IMG/VR virus record: IMGVR_UViG_3300042303_000360
Location: 1-51,681 of that record
Origin: a virus
Direction: 5' to 3' (one strand)
DNA length: 51,681 nt
Shown here: positions 29,997 to 37,028 of the stretch, piece after piece
Numbering within the stretch: position 1 is the first letter of the stretch
Layout of the letters: every line of letters starts with the position of its first letter
Program-made: the position numbers and the translations under genes
Notes under the pieces: model-generated
Told to the model about the DNA's origin: nothing
What the model saw: the letters and a program-made list of their open reading frames with translations, nothing else
Databases searched by the model: none

Positions 29997-31898
29997 TCAG
30001 TCCCAGAAGCTGCTCCCTGTGCTGGCTGGCCGCTCATCCTCCTGCACCGGTGCAGGCCGCGGCACATCACGCACCACACCGGCGTAGCGCTCCTCATCCC
30101 ACCGCTCATCGCTCCACCGATCCGCACCCACCAGCGCCGCCGCGGCCCGCGCATACACCCTGCAGTCGAGCGCTTCGTTCCGCGGCCTGGTCTTGATCCA
30201 CTCGAACCTGTTGTAGCCCCGCCGGTCGATCGTGTTCGTCAGCCGCTCCGCGCACAGCTGCCGGAACCATTCCTCGCCGTGCTGCGGGAAGTGGCACCAG
30301 CCATGCGGCAGCTCGCCGTCATCCGGCAGCGGCCGCCGCAGCCAGCCATAGAGCTCGCTCTTCGCCGTGCTGCTCCCCACCGGCCACACCTTCACGCCAC
30401 CACGCAGCGCCTTGCCATTACGCAGCACCTCCACCCGCCCCGGTGTGCCGATGATCGCCGTCTGCGTCTCCTGGCCCTTCACCGCAATCACACGGTTGCC
30501 GGCCTGGCCACGCACCCACCGGTAGACCTCCTGGCTCCTGAAGCCCGAGTCGATCGCCGTCATCCGGATCGGCAGCCGCTGCCCGTCGCCGCGGCCGAAC
30601 TCCGAGCGCACGAACTTCGTCAGCTCGCGCCACACATCCGGCTGCGCCGTGTCGCCAGCCAGCACCTGATAGTCGAGGCTCCAGCTCTTCATCCCAGGGC
30701 CCCAGCCCACCACCTCCAGCTCGAGGCGGTCCATCTGCACGTCCACGCCGCAGGTGATGAACACCACGCCGTCGGGCACCGTGCCCAGCTCATAGAGCTC
30801 CCGCCGGTTGTAGAGCGCCTCCCAGTCCGGCGCCTCGCCATCGTCGTTCCAGCACTCCGCCAGCACCGTGTTGGTCCACGGTTTCAGCTCCGCCGGGTTG
30901 TCCTTCGCCTTCTCGTAGCCCACCACCGCATCGGTCCAGCTGAACCACCCCAGCGGCGCATAGAGCGCCGAGCAGTGGTAGCCCTGCACCGTCCGTTCTG
31001 GGAACGACGCCTCCCACCACTCGTCGGTGAAGACCTCGGGGTCATACCACCATGCTTTCGTGTCCTCCTCGATCCCCTCGCCGCATTCCTCGCAGATCAG
31101 CACCGGCGGCATCCGCAGCGTGTTCGGCAAGCCCGAGTCCTTCGGGTCGTACCGGATCCGGTCCCACACGATCCCCTGCCGGTGCTGGCAATGGGGGCAG
31201 GGCAGCAGCAGGTGCTGCTGGTTGCTGTCTTCCCACTTCGCCCAGATTTGGCTCCGGTTCGCGATCGTCGGCGTCGACGTCCACGCCATCTTCTTCCGCA
31301 CGCCGAACGTCCGGGTGCGGGCCGTCACAATCGCCAGCGGGCTTCCTTCTTTATCCACGTCCGCCGGCCAGCGGTCGATCTCATCCCCGCCGAGATACCG
31401 GATTGGCATCGACGCCAGGCCGCTCGCTGCATTCGCTCCGCCGAGGATCAGGAAGCCGCCGGTGAACTCCTTCATCAGCTGCGTGTTGCCGCTGTCCCGC
31501 TCGCGCGGCGCCTTCACCTTCTCCTGCAGGCTCGGGCTTGCCTCGATCATCGGGGCGATGCGCATCTTGCTGTAGCGCTTCGCCAGGTCGATCGTCGGCT
31601 GCACGAACAGCGCCGGCCCCGGCGCGATGTCCATCGTGTAGCCGGTCCAGTTGTTGAGCGCCTCGCTCTTGCCCATCTGGCTCCCGAACACCAGCACCAC
31701 CTCCTGCACCGTGCTGGTGGCCGAAAGGTCATCCATGGCCTTGCGGAGATAGGGGGTCCTGCTCGTTCTCCACGGACCGTGCTCACTCGAGGCCTTCGGG
31801 CTGAGAATCCGCCGCTGGTCCGCCCACTCGCTGACCGTCAGCAGCGGGTCAGGCTCCAGGCCCCGCCGAAACGCGCGCCGGCATTCCTCAATCAGCAT
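29997..31898 (-). CDS. Terminase large subunit, GpA family (633 aa)
   Basis: A 633-aa lambda gpA-type packaging ATPase and nuclease. The N-terminal ATPase has the variant Walker A GSQMGKS (72-78) and Walker B YLGGDEIDRWP (D172, E173). The C-terminal nuclease begins FITCGVDVQMDRLELEVVGW with the first catalytic Asp and continues through AIDSGFRSQEVYRWV. GpA enzymes usually cut at cos sites, so a cos site is expected, but I could not identify one. Overlaps the small subunit by 11 bp. Confidence 0.96.
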   Translation of the reverse strand: MLIEECRRAFRRGLEPDPLLTVSEWADQRRILSPKASSEHGPWRTSRTPYLRKAMDDLSATSTVQEVVLVFGSQMGKSEALNNWTGYTMDIAPGPALFVQPTIDLAKRYSKMRIAPMIEASPSLQEKVKAPRERDSGNTQLMKEFTGGFLILGGANAASGLASMPIRYLGGDEIDRWPADVDKEGSPLAIVTARTRTFGVRKKMAWTSTPTIANRSQIWAKWEDSNQQHLLLPCPHCQHRQGIVWDRIRYDPKDSGLPNTLRMPPVLICEECGEGIEEDTKAWWYDPEVFTDEWWEASFPERTVQGYHCSALYAPLGWFSWTDAVVGYEKAKDNPAELKPWTNTVLAECWNDDGEAPDWEALYNRRELYELGTVPDGVVFITCGVDVQMDRLELEVVGWGPGMKSWSLDYQVLAGDTAQPDVWRELTKFVRSEFGRGDGQRLPIRMTAIDSGFRSQEVYRWVRGQAGNRVIAVKGQETQTAIIGTPGRVEVLRNGKALRGGVKVWPVGSSTAKSELYGWLRRPLPDDGELPHGWCHFPQHGEEWFRQLCAERLTNTIDRRGYNRFEWIKTRPRNEALDCRVYARAAAALVGADRWSDERWDEERYAGVVRDVPRPAPVQEDERPASTGSSFWD

Positions 31899-32433
31899 CA
31901 GCCGCCAGTCCCTCCAGCGCCTTCACCAGATGGCGCTCCAGCACCAGCAGCACCTCCGCGCGTTGCTCCGGCGTCAGGCCCCCGGCCGCCCGCGCGATGT
32001 CGCCGATCATCAGCTGCGGCGTCCGCCGCAACGAATCCCGCACCCGCCGGCCTTCCTCGAACCACACCCGCTCCACATCTGACTTCGGCACCAGCTGGCC
32101 CTGGCGCTCCTTCAGGTCGAGCTCCAGCAGCTTCGCCTGATACAGCGTCCGCAGCGCCTGGGCCTGCGCATGGCTCGGTGCCTTCGACAGCACATCCGGC
32201 GCGTTGCCCTGCTGCTGCTCCCGCTCCCGCGCACGTTCCGCCGCTGCGCCACGCTGCTTCGCCGGCGACGTGTTCCGCTGCCACTCCTGGTCCGCAATCT
32301 CCGGGTCGATCTGCCAGCGGCGCTTCCCCGCCTGCACCGCACCCTTCACGATCCGGCCGTCGGCAATCGCCTTCCGCACCGCGCGACCCGTCACGCCGCG
32401 CTGCTCTGCGTACTCGTCTGGGGAGATCAGCAC
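31888..32433 (-). CDS. Terminase small subunit, Nu1-like (181 aa)
   Basis: 181 aa. Residues 1-50 form a winged helix-turn-helix (ISPDEYAEQRGVTGRAVRKA, DGRIVKGAVQAGKRRW) that recognises the packaging site. The central region is a charged coiled coil (AAAERAREREQQQG) and the C-terminal helices bind the large subunit. Length equals lambda Nu1. It lies immediately upstream of the large subunit. Confidence 0.9.
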   Translation of the reverse strand: MLISPDEYAEQRGVTGRAVRKAIADGRIVKGAVQAGKRRWQIDPEIADQEWQRNTSPAKQRGAAAERAREREQQQGNAPDVLSKAPSHAQAQALRTLYQAKLLELDLKERQGQLVPKSDVERVWFEEGRRVRDSLRRTPQLMIGDIARAAGGLTPEQRAEVLLVLERHLVKALEGLAADAD

Positions 32434-32705
32434 AGCTCAACGTAGTAGCCCAGATCAGTCAGCTTCCGCGCCACTCCCGGCGGAAACGGGCTCATCAGCT
32501 GAATCGGCGTGTCGCTCGGCGCGATCCCCTTCACCAGCGCAGCCAGCTGGTCGATGAGCATCACCGTGTGGCCGCGGCCCTCCAGCATCTCCTCGACCGT
32601 CACTTCTGGCCCCACCGGCCCGAAGGTGATCCGCATCGGCCAGGCCCTCACATGACCATTCGGGCCCCACTGGCAGCCGTAGGCGATCTGCGCGACCTCA
32701 ATCAT
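32427..32705 (-). CDS. Small hypothetical protein upstream of terminase (92 aa)
   Basis: The ATG at 32705 (MIEVAQIAYGCQWGPNGHV) overlaps the stop of the preceding gene and is preferred over an earlier start. 92 aa, mixed alpha/beta, with VEEMLEGRGHTVMLIDQLAA resembling a Rossmann-like strand-helix and ending LTDLGYYVELC. Not recognised. Membership in the tightly overlapping cassette with IbrA/IbrB suggests a linked function. Confidence 0.6.
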   Translation of the reverse strand: MIEVAQIAYGCQWGPNGHVRAWPMRITFGPVGPEVTVEEMLEGRGHTVMLIDQLAALVKGIAPSDTPIQLMSPFPPGVARKLTDLGYYVELC

Positions 32706-33081
32706 TGAACCCAGCAACGAACGGCCTGATGCAGCTGGCAGGCGCATCCTGCCAGGGCATGAGCACCCGGGTGCCTGGCGTCGCGTTCATCACCGACCAA
32801 CCCAGCGGGCACTGCTGCACCCAGGACCAGATCTGCCCCACCTCCACCCGCAGGTAGCGCGGCGCCCGGTCGAGCACCCCATAGACCAGCATCCCGCCAG
32901 CGCGCGGCCGCTCCGTCACCTCGAGGCCCAGCCGATCGGCCAGGGCCCAGGCCAGTAGCTGCCCGCCGCGGTCCATCCCACACACCGACGTGCACTGCCT
33001 CGAGCACTGCGCCGCGATCACATCTACCGCCGCATCGAAGCCCGCCCAGGTGAGCGTCAGCAGCGGCCCGTCGCTGCTCAT
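32698..33081 (-). CDS. Putative phosphoribosyltransferase-like hypothetical protein (127 aa)
   Basis: The ATG at 33081 overlaps the TGA of IbrB (ATGA), so 127 aa is the natural length. VCGMDRGGQLLAWALADRLG resembles the flexible-strand GGxxLA-helix of type I phosphoribosyltransferases, and AGGMLVYGVLDRAPR could be the following strand, but the PRPP-binding loop is not clearly conserved. Cys residues (CSRQCTSVC) are unusual. Function unproven. Confidence 0.55.
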   Translation of the reverse strand: MSSDGPLLTLTWAGFDAAVDVIAAQCSRQCTSVCGMDRGGQLLAWALADRLGLEVTERPRAGGMLVYGVLDRAPRYLRVEVGQIWSWVQQCPLGWSVMNATPGTRVLMPWQDAPASCIRPFVAGFND

Positions 33082-33596
33082 CCCTTCCTCGGCACCCACG
33101 CCTTGTTCAGCCCGCGGCCGCGGCCCACCTGCGTCGGCATCCCCGCGCGGTTCACCAGCCGCTGCACTTCCTCGCGCTCCATCCCCAGTCGCTTCTGGAT
33201 CGTGCGCTCTGGCACTCCCTCGTCCACCATCCGCCGCACGATGTCCGCCATCCGCAGCACACCATGCGTGCCCCTGGCTCGGTTGTGCCTGATCGTCGAC
33301 ATCATCCGGTGCACCGGATCCAGACGCACCTGCACAGTAGGCACCAGACCACCCGTCAGGCCAGCCACTCGCGGATCCGCGCTCACCGTCCACCGATGGA
33401 AGCCATCGACGATCACGAACTTCCCGTCAGCCTCCGGCAGCGTCACGATTGCCGAGGTCCAGCCGTCCTCGAGGATGCTCACGATCAGCAGCTCCAGCTC
33501 GGGCGGCGCCACGTGGTTCGGGTTGTAGGCGTTGCCCACCAGGCGGTCGCGCGGCACCCACCGCACCTGCGACACCGGCTGCTGCTCCACGCTCAC
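33078..33596 (-). CDS. ParB-like nuclease-domain protein, IbrB type (172 aa)
   Basis: The GTG at 33596 overlaps the stop of the IbrA gene (GTGA) and is the coupled start. 172 aa. A ParB/Srx-fold domain (residues 8-110) contains IVDGFHRWT (62-70), the IbrB version of the ParB GxHR motif. It is followed by an HTH-like segment (RMVDEGVPERTIQKRLGME, EVQRLVNRAG). In E. coli prophages IbrB is always paired with IbrA and together they alter gene expression by an unknown mechanism. Here the pair is intact and translationally coupled. Confidence 0.82.
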   Translation of the reverse strand: MSVEQQPVSQVRWVPRDRLVGNAYNPNHVAPPELELLIVSILEDGWTSAIVTLPEADGKFVIVDGFHRWTVSADPRVAGLTGGLVPTVQVRLDPVHRMMSTIRHNRARGTHGVLRMADIVRRMVDEGVPERTIQKRLGMEREEVQRLVNRAGMPTQVGRGRGLNKAWVPRKG

Positions 33597-34765
33597 GGCT
33601 TCCGCTCCAGCGCCTTCACGTCCTCGAACGTCAGCCCCTTCCGCGCCGCCGCCGTGATCGCCCGCTGCACCAGCTGGCCCTTCTTCCGGCCCTTCAGGTC
33701 GCCGCGGCTCACCATCTGGCACACGTACCGCCAGCTCAGTCCCGTCATCACGTCGTCCTCTTCCTCCGGGATCGGCCGCCGCGTCTTCTTCCGGTGCATG
33801 CGCACCACCTGCGCCACGCTTCGCGCGATCTCCCCGCGCTCCTTCGCTGGGTAGAGCTCCAGCAGGCTCATCGCCCAGTCCTTCCAGCTCATCCCCGCCG
33901 GCGGCTGCTTCAGCTTCGCGCCATAGAGGTCGGTCCTCGCATAGCGCCCCGCCGTGTTCACGCCCTCCACCCGCCGCAGCATTCGGTCCCACAGCTCCGG
34001 CCAGCCCTGCGGATACTTCCACAGCCCACCCAGCGGCTCCTCACCGAACGGTGGCGTCACCCGCTGCACCCCGACACTCGTCCCCATCAGGGCCTGGACG
34101 TCATAGGCCCGGTTGTAGTCCCACCCCTCGCGGGCCGCCGCCACCCACACGTCCTCCGCACGCCAGTCGTAGATCGGCTTGCAGTTGGTGTAGTACCCCT
34201 GGCGCGGCTCCGCGATGTAGTTGTCGCGCTCCTTCTTCGTCACCGTCTGCAGCCGGCGCGGGCTCTCCTGCGCCCTGATCCCCGTCAGGTCCGCCACCGT
34301 CCCGCACTCCGGCCCGAACAGCACCGGGCCCACATCATCGAGCTGCATCCCCATCTCGAACCGCGGCACATCCCGCACCGTCACCACCCGGGCCGGCATC
34401 GGCCGCACCCAGCGATCGCGCGCCGACTCGTCCCAGCAGTTCCACCACGGCTGGCTCCTGGCGCACGCATTCCGGTGCCGGATCGGCAGGCAGCACCACA
34501 GCAGCCGCACATCCTCCCGCCCACGCACCCGCTCCACATACTCCACCGTCTCGGGGTACAACGCCTCCTCGTCCACGAAGTAGACGTCCAGCGGCAGCCG
34601 GCCTCGCTCGCGCGCCACCTGGGCCGTCAGGTTCAGCACCACCGTGCTGTCCTTCCCGCCGCTGAAGCTCACCACCACCCGATCGAACAGGTCGTAGATC
34701 CGCTGCAGCCGCATCAGGGCCGCAGCCATCACGTCCTGCTCCACCTCCACCTTGCGCAGCGTCAT
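33593..34765 (-). CDS. PAPS reductase-like protein, IbrA type (390 aa)
   Basis: A 390-aa member of the adenine-nucleotide alpha-hydrolase (PP-loop) family. The ATP-pyrophosphatase loop SFSGGKDSTVVL (33-44) is intact, followed by VYFVDEEALYPETVEYVERV, TGIRAQESPRRL and YYTNCKPIYDWRAEDVW, the signature of IbrA/DUF3440-type PAPS reductase homologues. DndC, which makes phosphorothioate DNA, belongs to the same superfamily, but this is not DndC. No DndA/D/E partners are present. Possible activities are sulfur or adenylate transfer to a nucleic acid or nucleotide. It overlaps the bicupin gene and IbrB by 4 bp each. Confidence 0.87.
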   Translation of the reverse strand: MTLRKVEVEQDVMAAALMRLQRIYDLFDRVVVSFSGGKDSTVVLNLTAQVARERGRLPLDVYFVDEEALYPETVEYVERVRGREDVRLLWCCLPIRHRNACARSQPWWNCWDESARDRWVRPMPARVVTVRDVPRFEMGMQLDDVGPVLFGPECGTVADLTGIRAQESPRRLQTVTKKERDNYIAEPRQGYYTNCKPIYDWRAEDVWVAAAREGWDYNRAYDVQALMGTSVGVQRVTPPFGEEPLGGLWKYPQGWPELWDRMLRRVEGVNTAGRYARTDLYGAKLKQPPAGMSWKDWAMSLLELYPAKERGEIARSVAQVVRMHRKKTRRPIPEEEDDVMTGLSWRYVCQMVSRGDLKGRKKGQLVQRAITAAARKGLTFEDVKALERKP

Positions 34766-35493
34766 CGCGTCCGGTGCTCCGCGCGCTCCGGCGCCGCCGC
34801 ACTCACGCCCTCGATGATCGTCCTGGTCAGCATCGGGTGCTGCTCATCCGTCGGGCCGCAGTCCGAGTCCGGGTGCCACGCCACCACAACCATGCTCTCG
34901 TCACGCTCGGTCCTGAACCGGTGCTGGCCGTCCGCATGGATCACGAACACCATCCCCGGCAGCAGCGGCTGGCGGCCCCCCGGCGTCACGCACTGGCCGC
35001 GCCCGCGCAGCACCACACCAATCCGCACGCTTGGGTGCGTGTGCATCGTCTGCTCGGTCCCGCCCGGGAACCACAGCCCGTTCAGGCATGGATCCCCCAG
35101 CTTCACCGGCGGCACCAGCAGCGTGTCCATGCAGCCGTCGATGTAGCGCAGCCGGCCCTGGGCCTCCACCGGCCCGCCCACCGCGAACATCCCGCGCCAT
35201 CCGTGCTGGCTGATCACGATCCCCTCCGGCAGCCCATCCGGATCCCGCACTGGGTAGACCGCCACCTTGCCTGGCACCGACGCATACATGCCCGGCCGCA
35301 GCCGATACCGATCGCCCTCCCACGGCTCCACCCACAGGCCGCCGTGGATGCAGAACACGAACGCCGTCGCGTTCTCCTCGCTGTGCAGCAGCTGCCCGCC
35401 GCACATCACGCCATAGACCCGCGTGCCGCTCTCCTCCAGATCCAGCAGCAGGCCGTTCCGCAGCTTCAGTCCCTCAAACGCTCGATCGAGCAT
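34762..35493 (-). CDS. Bicupin-like protein (243 aa)
   Basis: 243 aa with two cupin-like beta barrels. The C-terminal one is a good cupin: FPGGTEQTMHTHPSVRIGVV (metal-ligand type HTH), VLRGRGQCVTPGG and LLPGMVFVIHADGQHRF. The N-terminal one (ENATAFVFCIHGGLWVEPWE, YRLRPGMYASVPG) lacks clear metal ligands and may be structural. Cupins can be metal-dependent oxygenases, isomerases or simple sensors. It is translationally coupled to IbrA, so it probably acts on the same substrate or product. Confidence 0.8.
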   Translation of the reverse strand: MLDRAFEGLKLRNGLLLDLEESGTRVYGVMCGGQLLHSEENATAFVFCIHGGLWVEPWEGDRYRLRPGMYASVPGKVAVYPVRDPDGLPEGIVISQHGWRGMFAVGGPVEAQGRLRYIDGCMDTLLVPPVKLGDPCLNGLWFPGGTEQTMHTHPSVRIGVVLRGRGQCVTPGGRQPLLPGMVFVIHADGQHRFRTERDESMVVVAWHPDSDCGPTDEQHPMLTRTIIEGVSAAAPERAEHRTR

Positions 35494-36205
35494 CCATCCA
35501 CTCCCGGCAGACCTTCACCAACGCCTCTGGCGTCCCTTCCAGTCCGCTCGCCTCCTTCGCCATCCGCACCGCGCTCAGCACCACCTCTCGGTCATCCCAC
35601 AGCAGGTTCACGCTGAAGACGTGGCGCTCCTCCACCTGACCGCTCTCGGCCGTCGCGTCCGCATCGTCGTCGTCCTCGCCCACAGGCCCCAGGCCCAGGC
35701 CCTCCTGCCGCTCCGGCTCAACCCGCTCAGTCCCGGCAGCCGTCGCCACACCCTCGAACGATCCCAGGTCCAGGTCATCCTGCAGCCGCTGCAGCTCGTC
35801 GTCGCTCCAGCCCAGCGCCTCCAGGTCGAAGTCCTCCACCCGCAGCGCTTCGAGCTCCGCCTGCAGCAGGTCCAGATCCCAGCCCGCGTTCTCCGCCAGC
35901 CGGTTGTCGGCCAGCACATAGGCCCGCCGCTGCTCAGTCGTCAGGTGATCGAGCACCACCACCGGCACCTGGGCCAGGCCGAGACGGCGCGCTGCCTCCA
36001 GCCGACCATGGCCCGCCAGGATCCCGTCCTGCCCGTCGACCAGGATCGGTGCCGTGAAGCCGAACTCCTGGATCGACGCCTGGATCTGCTCCAGCTGGCG
36101 CTCGGAGTGGGTCCGGGCGTTCCGCTCATAGGGCTGCAGCCGCTCCAGCGGCCACAGCTCCAACCGTGACGCCATCGTCGGCGCCTTGCTCTTGCGCTTC
36201 GTCAT
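35474..36205 (-). CDS. ParB/sulfiredoxin-fold DNA-binding protein (243 aa)
   Basis: 243 aa. Residues 18-115 are a ParB N-terminal-like domain (RLQPYERNARTHSERQLEQ, DGILAGHGRLEAARRLG with GHGR 65-68, YVLADNRLAENAGWD), the type usually found next to phage DNA methyltransferases or terminases. A strongly acidic linker (EDDDDADATAES) leads to a C-terminal domain (FSVNLLWDDREVVLSAVRMA) that I do not recognise. It is the first gene of the late operon and overlaps the bicupin gene by 20 bp. ParB-like domains hydrolyse nucleotides or nick DNA, so it may provide that step in the cassette. Confidence 0.82.
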   Translation of the reverse strand: MTKRKSKAPTMASRLELWPLERLQPYERNARTHSERQLEQIQASIQEFGFTAPILVDGQDGILAGHGRLEAARRLGLAQVPVVVLDHLTTEQRRAYVLADNRLAENAGWDLDLLQAELEALRVEDFDLEALGWSDDELQRLQDDLDLGSFEGVATAAGTERVEPERQEGLGLGPVGEDDDDADATAESGQVEERHVFSVNLLWDDREVVLSAVRMAKEASGLEGTPEALVKVCREWMDARSSV

Positions 36206-36328
36206 GCGGTCATCAGATCACAGAGGGGCCAGATGCGGAACCTGACGGAACATCCTCGGGCATCCTCAGTGATCAGAAAAACCATCAGAACCCGCCAGAA
36301 CCGGCTCGCAATTGGCGCAGCCTATTGA

Positions 36329-36353
36329 GAACCCCAGTCATTGCAGGGGGTTT
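36329..36353. repeat. 25-bp imperfect palindrome, copy 4 (late operon leader)
   Basis: Left arm GAACCCCAGTCA, right arm TTGCAGGGGGTTT. AACCCC and GGGGTT pair. It is the most diverged copy of the six-member family and lies about 125 bp upstream of the first late gene (ParB). Confidence 0.55.
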
Positions 36354-36382
36354 GGAACCCAGACCGGAACCTGGCTCTAGCG

Positions 36383-36405
36383 AAAAATCGGGGTGCGCGG
36401 CCCCG
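36383..36405 (-). terminator. Intrinsic terminator after tail protein Z (end of leftward early operon)
   Basis: On the minus strand CGGGG (36405-36401) pairs with CCCCG (36393-36389) around a 7-nt loop and is followed by ATTTTT (36388-36383). It separates the leftward early genes from the late operon, so the late genes should have their own promoter. Confidence 0.75.
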
Positions 36406-36470
36406 TGTGCTTTTGGCGCCAGGTGGAGCCAAAAGGGTGGGGGGGTGGGGGGTGGCGTGGGGGGTGGGGC

Positions 36471-37028
36471 TCAGGCCCTGCCGAAGCCCCTGCCCATGGC
36501 CCCCAGGGCGCGCAGGATGCCGTTCTCCAGGGCCTCCTCGATGCGCACCTCTGTGCGTGCCTGAAGGGCTGGAGCCCACTTGCCCCCGGTGAAGATGGCG
36601 TGGATAGACGGGCCCTTGATGGTCTCCAAGGGGTAGCGCTCCTTGCCCCTGCGTTTGAAGGGCAGGCCCTTGGCGATGAAGCCGGACTTCACGACGGTGC
36701 GCTGGCCCCGGTAGATGCTCATGCTGAGGCCCGTGCTGGTCTGCTTGGGCTTGAACTGCATGGCCGTGATGGGCTTGCGGTTGGTGCGGATGATCGCGGT
36801 CTGGCCGCCGTCCCTGAACTGCGGGTTGGAGACGTCCTGCTTGATGCGGCCGGCGGTGAGCGAGTAGCGCTGACCGATCGACTTGGCCAGGGTGGTGCGG
36901 CCTGCCCGGGCAGCGTCACGAACGCCTGAGCGGATGGCCTTGGGGATGTCGTGGGAGGAGAGGCGGGCGAGGGTCTGAGCCAGCTCGCGGTCACCCAGGA
37001 CGCGGGCGTTGATGTCGATGACGGCCAT
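36471..37028 (-). CDS. Minor tail protein Z-like (185 aa)
   Basis: A 185-aa prophage minor tail protein Z (GpZ) homologue: VIDINARVLGDRELAQTLAR, KAIRSGVRDAARAGRTTLAK and YSLTAGRIKQDVSNPQFRD are characteristic of this family, which joins tail to head in lambda-like phages. Its position is odd. It lies outside the late operon, separated from it by a terminator, and downstream of the primase and DUF7303-like genes. It could be transcribed from an internal promoter in the region upstream of 37292. Confidence 0.85.
   Translation of the reverse strand: MAVIDINARVLGDRELAQTLARLSSHDIPKAIRSGVRDAARAGRTTLAKSIGQRYSLTAGRIKQDVSNPQFRDGGQTAIIRTNRKPITAMQFKPKQTSTGLSMSIYRGQRTVVKSGFIAKGLPFKRRGKERYPLETIKGPSIHAIFTGGKWAPALQARTEVRIEEALENGILRALGAMGRGFGRA

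Follow-up and report, generated by a model that had tools for sequence, protein, structure and literature searches.

The DNA considered here, called the window below, is an IMG/VR virus contig record of 51,681 bp (IMGVR_UViG_3300042303_000360). Its minus strand carries, from 36205 to 32427, six open reading frames (ORFs) that overlap end to start and are followed by the genes of the small and large terminase subunits (TerS and TerL); from the first gene, ParB1, to TerL the overlaps are 20, 4, 4, 4, 8, 7 and 11 bp in order. This arrangement, which had been pointed out in an earlier reading of the letters alone (the original prediction), was confirmed, and dozens of further contigs show the same gene order, so it is not due to chance. 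Judged from its genes, the cassette is probably a phage DNA-hypermodification cassette that has not been described before.

All the genes described here lie on the minus strand. ParB1 (35474..36205) encodes a 243-aa ParB-fold protein matching Pfam ParB_N (E 5.6e-7), and it is followed by a cupin gene (34762..35493), also of 243 aa, which matches Cupin_2 (E 1.5e-12) over two stretches. IbrA (33593..34765, 390 aa) has the PP-loop motif SGGKDS and matches Pfam PAPS_reduct (E 3e-16) and DUF3440 (E 1e-11) as well as phrog_2302 (E 5e-87), and IbrB (33078..33596, 172 aa, GTG start) is a second ParB-fold protein, matching the ParB-like family phrog_2159 (E 4e-59). These identities are those originally proposed. 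The next two genes encode PRT127 (32698..33081, 127 aa), a degenerate phosphoribosyltransferase (PRTase)-like protein according to AlphaFold2, Foldseek and BLASTP, and u92 (32427..32705, 92 aa), an orphan whose fold was predicted by AlphaFold2; family scans of both proteins gave nothing firm. TerS (31888..32433) matches phrog_57 (E 8e-24), and TerL (29997..31898) is of the GpA type (PF05876/PF20454). For all six cassette genes the nonsynonymous divergence (dN) is lower than the synonymous one (dS) in comparison with relatives, and against the closest relative dN is 0.03-0.20 and dS 0.23-0.52. On the 5' side of the cassette there is a non-coding gap (36206..36470) with a terminator-like inverted repeat at 36389-36405, in which a scan with the consensus only matched no sigma-70-like promoter. 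A neck/tail-completion gene (36471-37028; phrog_27, Minor_tail_Z) separates the primase-helicase region from the cassette, and it has the same place in relatives.

Distribution of the core and its place beside the terminase

A search for the same gene order in other phages had been suggested, and scans of IMG/VR in which IbrA, the cupin and an alignment of cupins served as queries gave 80 distinct contigs with the core (contigs are designated by L and a number). IbrA and IbrB are each present in 77 of them, a ParB-fold gene stands directly beside the cupin in 68, and grouping by the non-cassette genes gives at least 16 backgrounds. Distances in the gene trees are correlated (r 0.88 for IbrA-ParB1 and 0.84 for IbrA-IbrB), and by this measure the ParB-cupin-IbrA-IbrB module is co-inherited. 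The order is permuted to IbrA-IbrB-cupin in L054, L071 and L073, so the linkage is held even where the order is not. The block might be selfish or hitch-hiking, that is, genes of unrelated functions gathered in a terminase region tolerant of insertions, and the slot ahead of the terminase is indeed hypervariable and also receives HNH-like, radical S-adenosylmethionine (SAM) and LAGLIDADG-like genes. However, the four genes occur together throughout these backgrounds, even where permuted, and the alternative occupants of the slot are repeatedly DNA-modification genes, which makes this explanation very improbable.

A TerL gene on the same strand follows the last cassette gene at a distance of 0.3-3.3 kb in 61 of the 80 contigs, and by Pfam these TerLs are of four classes (GpA in 37, TerL_ATPase in 15, Terminase_6 in five and Terminase_3 in four), so the terminase-side position is kept across unrelated terminases. 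Most of the other 19 contigs stop too early or have divergent TerLs; in L043, L045 and L063 no TerL was found in more than 3.7 kb of downstream sequence.

The cupin has no match among 50,697 cultured phage records, while IbrA is found in 215 of these records and IbrB in 220. In the records that were opened, IbrA-IbrB is mostly placed in regions for replication, lysis or lysogeny and once near a portal gene; it is without the cupin and usually away from the terminase, and thus the pair is able to work in other places. A scan of a genome collection gave cellular cupins and one cassette contig, L113, which was binned as Synechococcaceae and would hint at picocyanobacteria of fresh water as hosts. 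An ORF of LAGLIDADG type, probably a homing endonuclease gene, lies between IbrA and IbrB at L014:2378-2905. No report of a cupin together with a PAPS-reductase-type protein and ParB in phages was found in the part of the literature that was covered.

The six genes had been taken as one unit; instead, the core is ParB-cupin-IbrA-IbrB, which is mobile, and PRT127 and u92 go with the terminase. The latter two are confined to some members of the GpA lineage and are retained where other genes stand in for cupin-IbrA-IbrB; ParB plus radical SAM genes (L002/L006) or a ParB-DUF4417 (L028) are inserted between IbrB and PRT127. A second ParB with a radical-SAM-like gene (Rv2578c-type) is seen in the slot at L002:7708-9565 and L006:5388-7258 and in L156 and L186, with or without the cassette, and it may possibly represent a further modification step.

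PRT127 is modelled as a degenerate type I, xanthine-guanine phosphoribosyltransferase (XGPRT)-like fold: its AlphaFold2 model, of low confidence (predicted local distance difference test score, pLDDT, 65), matches E. coli XGPRT in Foldseek (E 1.2e-4), and BLASTP relates it (E 7e-11) to a PRTase in the preQ0 gene cluster of a sister contig, L168, whose phosphoribosyl pyrophosphate (PRPP) loop is intact (VVDDICETGHT). In the PRT127 alignment the PRPP loop DDxxxTG is absent and the pyrophosphate loop is not conserved. The vague PRTase likeness noticed originally thus holds for the fold, while the catalytic loop has been lost, so a catalytic step is unlikely; an active PRTase step was rejected on these grounds. 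The structure of u92, which had likewise been put forward for prediction, came out as a confident alpha/beta fold (pLDDT 92.6), but no Foldseek match at E<=1e-3 was obtained in PDB or BFVD. No u92 was found among the cultured phages.

Replacement of the core in sister phages

Scanning IMG/VR with u92 brought up 67 loci belonging to the lineage of the window, and 31 of them contain the cassette IbrA or cupin. In 11 loci without the cassette where more than 2.5 kb of upstream sequence is visible, the contents of the slot vary. Two of these contigs have a complete 7-deazaguanine pathway there (L168:1662-6685 and L183:1-4700), consisting of ParB1, a DpdA-like transglycosylase, QueC, FolE, QueD, a PRTase and QueE, and then the PRT127/u92-TerS-TerL block. 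QueC is above the Pfam cut-off (E about 1e-66), QueE matches E. coli QueE (E 2e-64), FolE matches GTP cyclohydrolase I, and the DpdA-like protein is 35% identical to an annotated phage DpdA by tblastn. QueD was assigned from its sequence, and a strict PDB search gave no match for it. Pfam PF01702 did not detect tRNA-guanine transglycosylase (TGT)/DpdA in the sister contigs, presumably owing to the strong divergence of phage DpdA. FolE, QueD, QueE, QueC and DpdA are the minimal set yielding dPreQ0 in phage DNA (PMC6884629). The small PRTase beside QueD/QueE is outside that minimal preQ0 set.

A third sister, L173, has a different set in the slot (L173:2005-5616), namely ParB1, a C5-methyltransferase, an AsnB-type protein with a glutaminase domain and a CmoA-like protein. 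The best PDB match of the methyltransferase is 8YF3, which is CmoX. CmoX is a DNA cytosine carboxymethyltransferase, and its partner CmoY is a homologue of asparagine synthetase that works on DNA; genes with a ParB domain are often found in the neighbourhood of CmoX (PMC12783734). By its sequences, the L173 set resembles that branch of the 5-carboxymethylcytosine system which uses ammonia. Over their N-terminal 144 residues, the ParB1 proteins of L168 and L173 are 74% and 65% identical to that of the window. ParB1, u92, TerS and TerL are kept while the slot contents differ, and therefore it is the modification enzymes that are exchanged and the ParB1 and terminase sides that are constant. Among the cassette contigs examined with the same queries, no DpdA-, QueC- or CmoX-like or methylase homologue was detected except in L043, which has a separate C5-methyltransferase further downstream of the cassette; CmoX, CmoA and AsnB homologues were not found in the cassette itself. 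In two further sister contigs, L181 and L188, neither the cassette nor any different modification gene was detected.

The wider relatives of ParB1 are found in similar company. Some of its closest relatives in phages are the ParB domains of DNA methylases, and 23 of 60 records of close relatives in cultured phages, sampled across the ranking, are annotated as DNA methylase. In several of the cultured loci opened, a ParB gene or a ParB-methylase fusion is at or near the terminase, and ParB1 homologues by the terminase either form fusions with N6/N4 methylases or TET/JBP-like genes or lie next to them. Cyanophage MED4-117 has ParB, an FkbM-type methyltransferase, a TET/JBP-like protein and TerL; the third is annotated as queuine tRNA-ribosyltransferase, that is, a TGT, and we treat it with caution as TET/JBP-like because it has a sub-threshold match to Pfam Tet_JBP (E 3.5e-6) and is unlike the L168 DpdA. 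In a ParB-based IMG/VR scan, TET/JBP-like or methylase genes again adjoin ParB and TerL. On the evidence of gene order, there is a general terminase-side slot in which ParB is followed by modification genes and then by TerS-TerL. ParABS-type partition was also considered and was rejected, since ParB1 groups with methylase-linked ParB domains; family scans gave no match to a ParA-like protein among the cassette genes scanned.

The comparison of genes thus gives a conserved module, its adjacency to unrelated terminases and its replacement by known pathways. Because the slot is swapped for known DNA-modification pathways and because of the ParB-methylase and TET-like precedent, we regard cupin-IbrA-IbrB, served by ParB1, as a candidate DNA-hypermodification module directly upstream of the terminase, a reading that has a fairly good though far from certain chance of being right. 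DNA as the target is inferred from the slot: the cassette is replaced in close sisters by two DNA-disguising pathways, and therefore it probably makes another modified DNA base. The original prediction was thereby partly upheld: its main idea, modification of phage DNA around packaging, is strongly backed by gene context, as the slot holds DpdA/preQ0, CmoX-type, methylase or TET/JBP-like genes, while its six-gene unit and its sulfur chemistry were not upheld.

Chemistry suggested by the cupin and IbrA

In an alignment of 115 cupin sequences, His151, His153 and His191 of the C-terminal domain are invariant, and so are Cys121 and Cys136 and also Arg157, which stands at the usual place of the fourth ligand, where cupins usually have Glu or Gln. 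The best PDB sequence match is the bicupin BacB. The name bicupin used originally fits the two Cupin_2 stretches, but the metal-binding histidines are kept in the C-terminal domain only. IbrB has a DGFHR motif and a helix-turn-helix (HTH)-like C-terminal region in its alignment, and its PDB matches are ParB, Noc and SbnI. The HTH-like end of IbrB, the position of the cassette at the head of the late operon and the Ibr name, annotated in several phages after the E. coli namesakes, would suit a regulatory cassette in which IbrA and IbrB are co-activators of prophage expression, here of the late genes. We consider this distinctly improbable, for the PP-loop and the cupin metal residues are fully kept across 77-115 sequences, the cassette is replaced by biosynthetic enzymes, and the Ibr name comes from a genetic effect and not from a mechanism.

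The cupin is also found with other ATP pyrophosphatases. A second PP-loop protein accompanies it in L047, L068, L069, L074, L078, L082, L085 and L092, and three phage contigs (L068, L069 and L092) have a separate class II glutamine amidotransferase gene. A cysteine-rich protein of about 150 aa without a Pfam match is encoded between the cupin and the second PP-loop gene at L047:6671-7168 and L085:4967-5422. In the marine phage contigs L018 and L019, a related cupin and an asparagine-synthetase-like PP-loop gene lie among structural genes. Among 34 cellular cupin loci many have AsnB-type amidotransferases, with a Zn-ribbon/membrane protein; in the GTDB loci L093, L096, L101, L104, L105, L109 and others, the cluster consists of the cupin, a Zn-ribbon/transmembrane/Toprim-like protein and an AsnB-type amidotransferase, and it is seen in Bacteroidota, Planctomycetota, Verrucomicrobiota, Acidobacteriota and others. 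The pairing of the cupin with ATP pyrophosphatases and sometimes glutamine amidotransferases points to activation driven by ATP and probably to amidation, with adenylation coming first and transfer of an amide or amine after it. Activation by IbrA at the expense of ATP, as originally proposed, would fit these sequences.

The target, however, might be something other than DNA, such as a virion protein, a small metabolite or the nucleotide pool in a response to host defence. PP-loop enzymes use many substrates, the L018/L019 genes stand among structural genes, and the cellular cupin-AsnB operons have a membrane-type partner. Against this are the swap with two proven DNA-modification pathways and the ParB-methylase and TET-like precedent at the same position, and we take a non-DNA target to be unlikely, although of the rival explanations we give it the most weight.

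A sulfur-based DNA modification, with IbrA like DndC/SspD and IbrB like DndB making phosphorothioate or thio-base DNA, was also examined. IbrA has a PP-loop PAPS_reduct domain and weak PADLOC matches to DndC/SspD, and in addition DndB resembles ParB, whose fold binds nucleoside triphosphates (NTPs) (PMC12704722, PMC10853773). On the other hand, 79 IbrA sequences share no conserved set of cysteines of the kind found in DndC or adenosine phosphosulfate (APS) reductase: C92 is present in 95%, C101 in 89% and C110 in 72%, the four-cysteine set is not conserved, and L020/L021 have neither C92 nor C101. No DndD-, DndE-, SspB- or SspC-like gene was found in the PADLOC scan of the six proteins or in the architecture of the loci, and the module is joined by glutamine amidotransferases, not by sulfur donors. 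A sulfur route is improbable; the missing Fe-S cysteine set makes sulfur transfer less likely, and that part of the original prediction is not supported.

The DNA-hypermodification module we propose would work as follows. IbrA, as a PP-loop ATP pyrophosphatase, would adenylate the oxygen of a carbonyl or carboxyl group, either in a DNA base itself or in a substituent of that base, and a nucleophile, ammonia or an amine being likelier than sulfur, would displace AMP. The cupin, with its three-His metal site, may make the reactive group or tailor the product, and the two ParB-fold proteins would act as DNA- and NTP-binding proteins that guide the enzymes to phage DNA. The modification would be post-replicative, right before packaging, and would block host nucleases.

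Several points weigh against this proposal. The evidence for the swap consists of three alternative contigs of this lineage. The core is without a canonical base-flipping enzyme, and therefore the action on DNA or nucleotides would fall to IbrA itself. An in-frame ParB1-IbrB fusion without cupin and IbrA occurs at L147:4363-5640, apparently a natural deletion that joined the two ParB-fold proteins. Moreover, the cellular cupin-AsnB cluster, with its Zn-ribbon/membrane protein, has no obvious connection with DNA, the roughly 215-220 cultured phages with IbrA-IbrB have the pair without the cupin and, where inspected, usually not beside the terminase, and the confidence of the PRT127 model is low.

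Comparison with known systems

We know of no chemistry for IbrA-IbrB pairs. They are widespread, being found in more than 200 cultured phage records and in E. coli K-12 as ybdNM. The proposal, if true, would supply the DUF3440/IbrA-IbrB (YbdN-YbdM) family with a chemistry, and the slot swap makes this question directly testable. Furthermore, the slot of ParB, modification genes and TerS-TerL offers a way of looking for additional DNA modifications in phages that have not been cultivated. The IbrA-IbrB pair corresponds to YbdN-YbdM in E. coli K-12 (PMC9068703). The pairs of E. coli prophages and cultured phages resemble the cassette in having a PAPS_reduct and DUF3440 protein with a ParB-fold partner; those of cultured phages differ from it in being without a cupin and, where inspected, mostly not terminase-linked.

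Dnd/Ssp phosphorothioation shares a PP-loop enzyme and a ParB-fold protein with the cassette, which differs in having neither a conserved Fe-S cysteine set nor DndD/E or SspB/C. The phage 7-deazaguanine (dpd/preQ0) pathway occupies exactly the same slot in L168/L183; one of its enzymes, QueC, has a PP-loop, and its PRTase is a relative of PRT127, whereas DpdA, QueC, FolE, QueD and QueE were not found in the cassette contigs examined. The ParB-fused or ParB-adjacent phage DNA methylases (phrog_498) and TET/JBP-like oxygenases have a ParB domain closely related to ParB1 in the same place; in the cassette the catalytic partner is cupin-IbrA-IbrB, not a methyltransferase or a 2-oxoglutarate oxygenase. 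CmoA-CmoX-CmoY of Synechococcus phage S-B43 (PMC12783734) also uses an AsnB-like ATP pyrophosphatase as a ligase on phage DNA, often with a ParB-domain gene nearby, and the similar set of L173 takes the same terminase-side slot, whereas IbrA is of the PAPS-reductase/DUF3440 type and has the cupin and a second ParB-fold protein as partners. Compared with these systems, the cassette might make a DNA base modification not described so far, and do so without an enzyme of the classes known to modify DNA (methyltransferase, TET/JBP, thymidylate synthase homologue or DpdA), employing a three-His cupin, a PAPS-reductase-type ATP pyrophosphatase and two ParB-fold proteins, a tentative view to which we give slightly less than an even chance.

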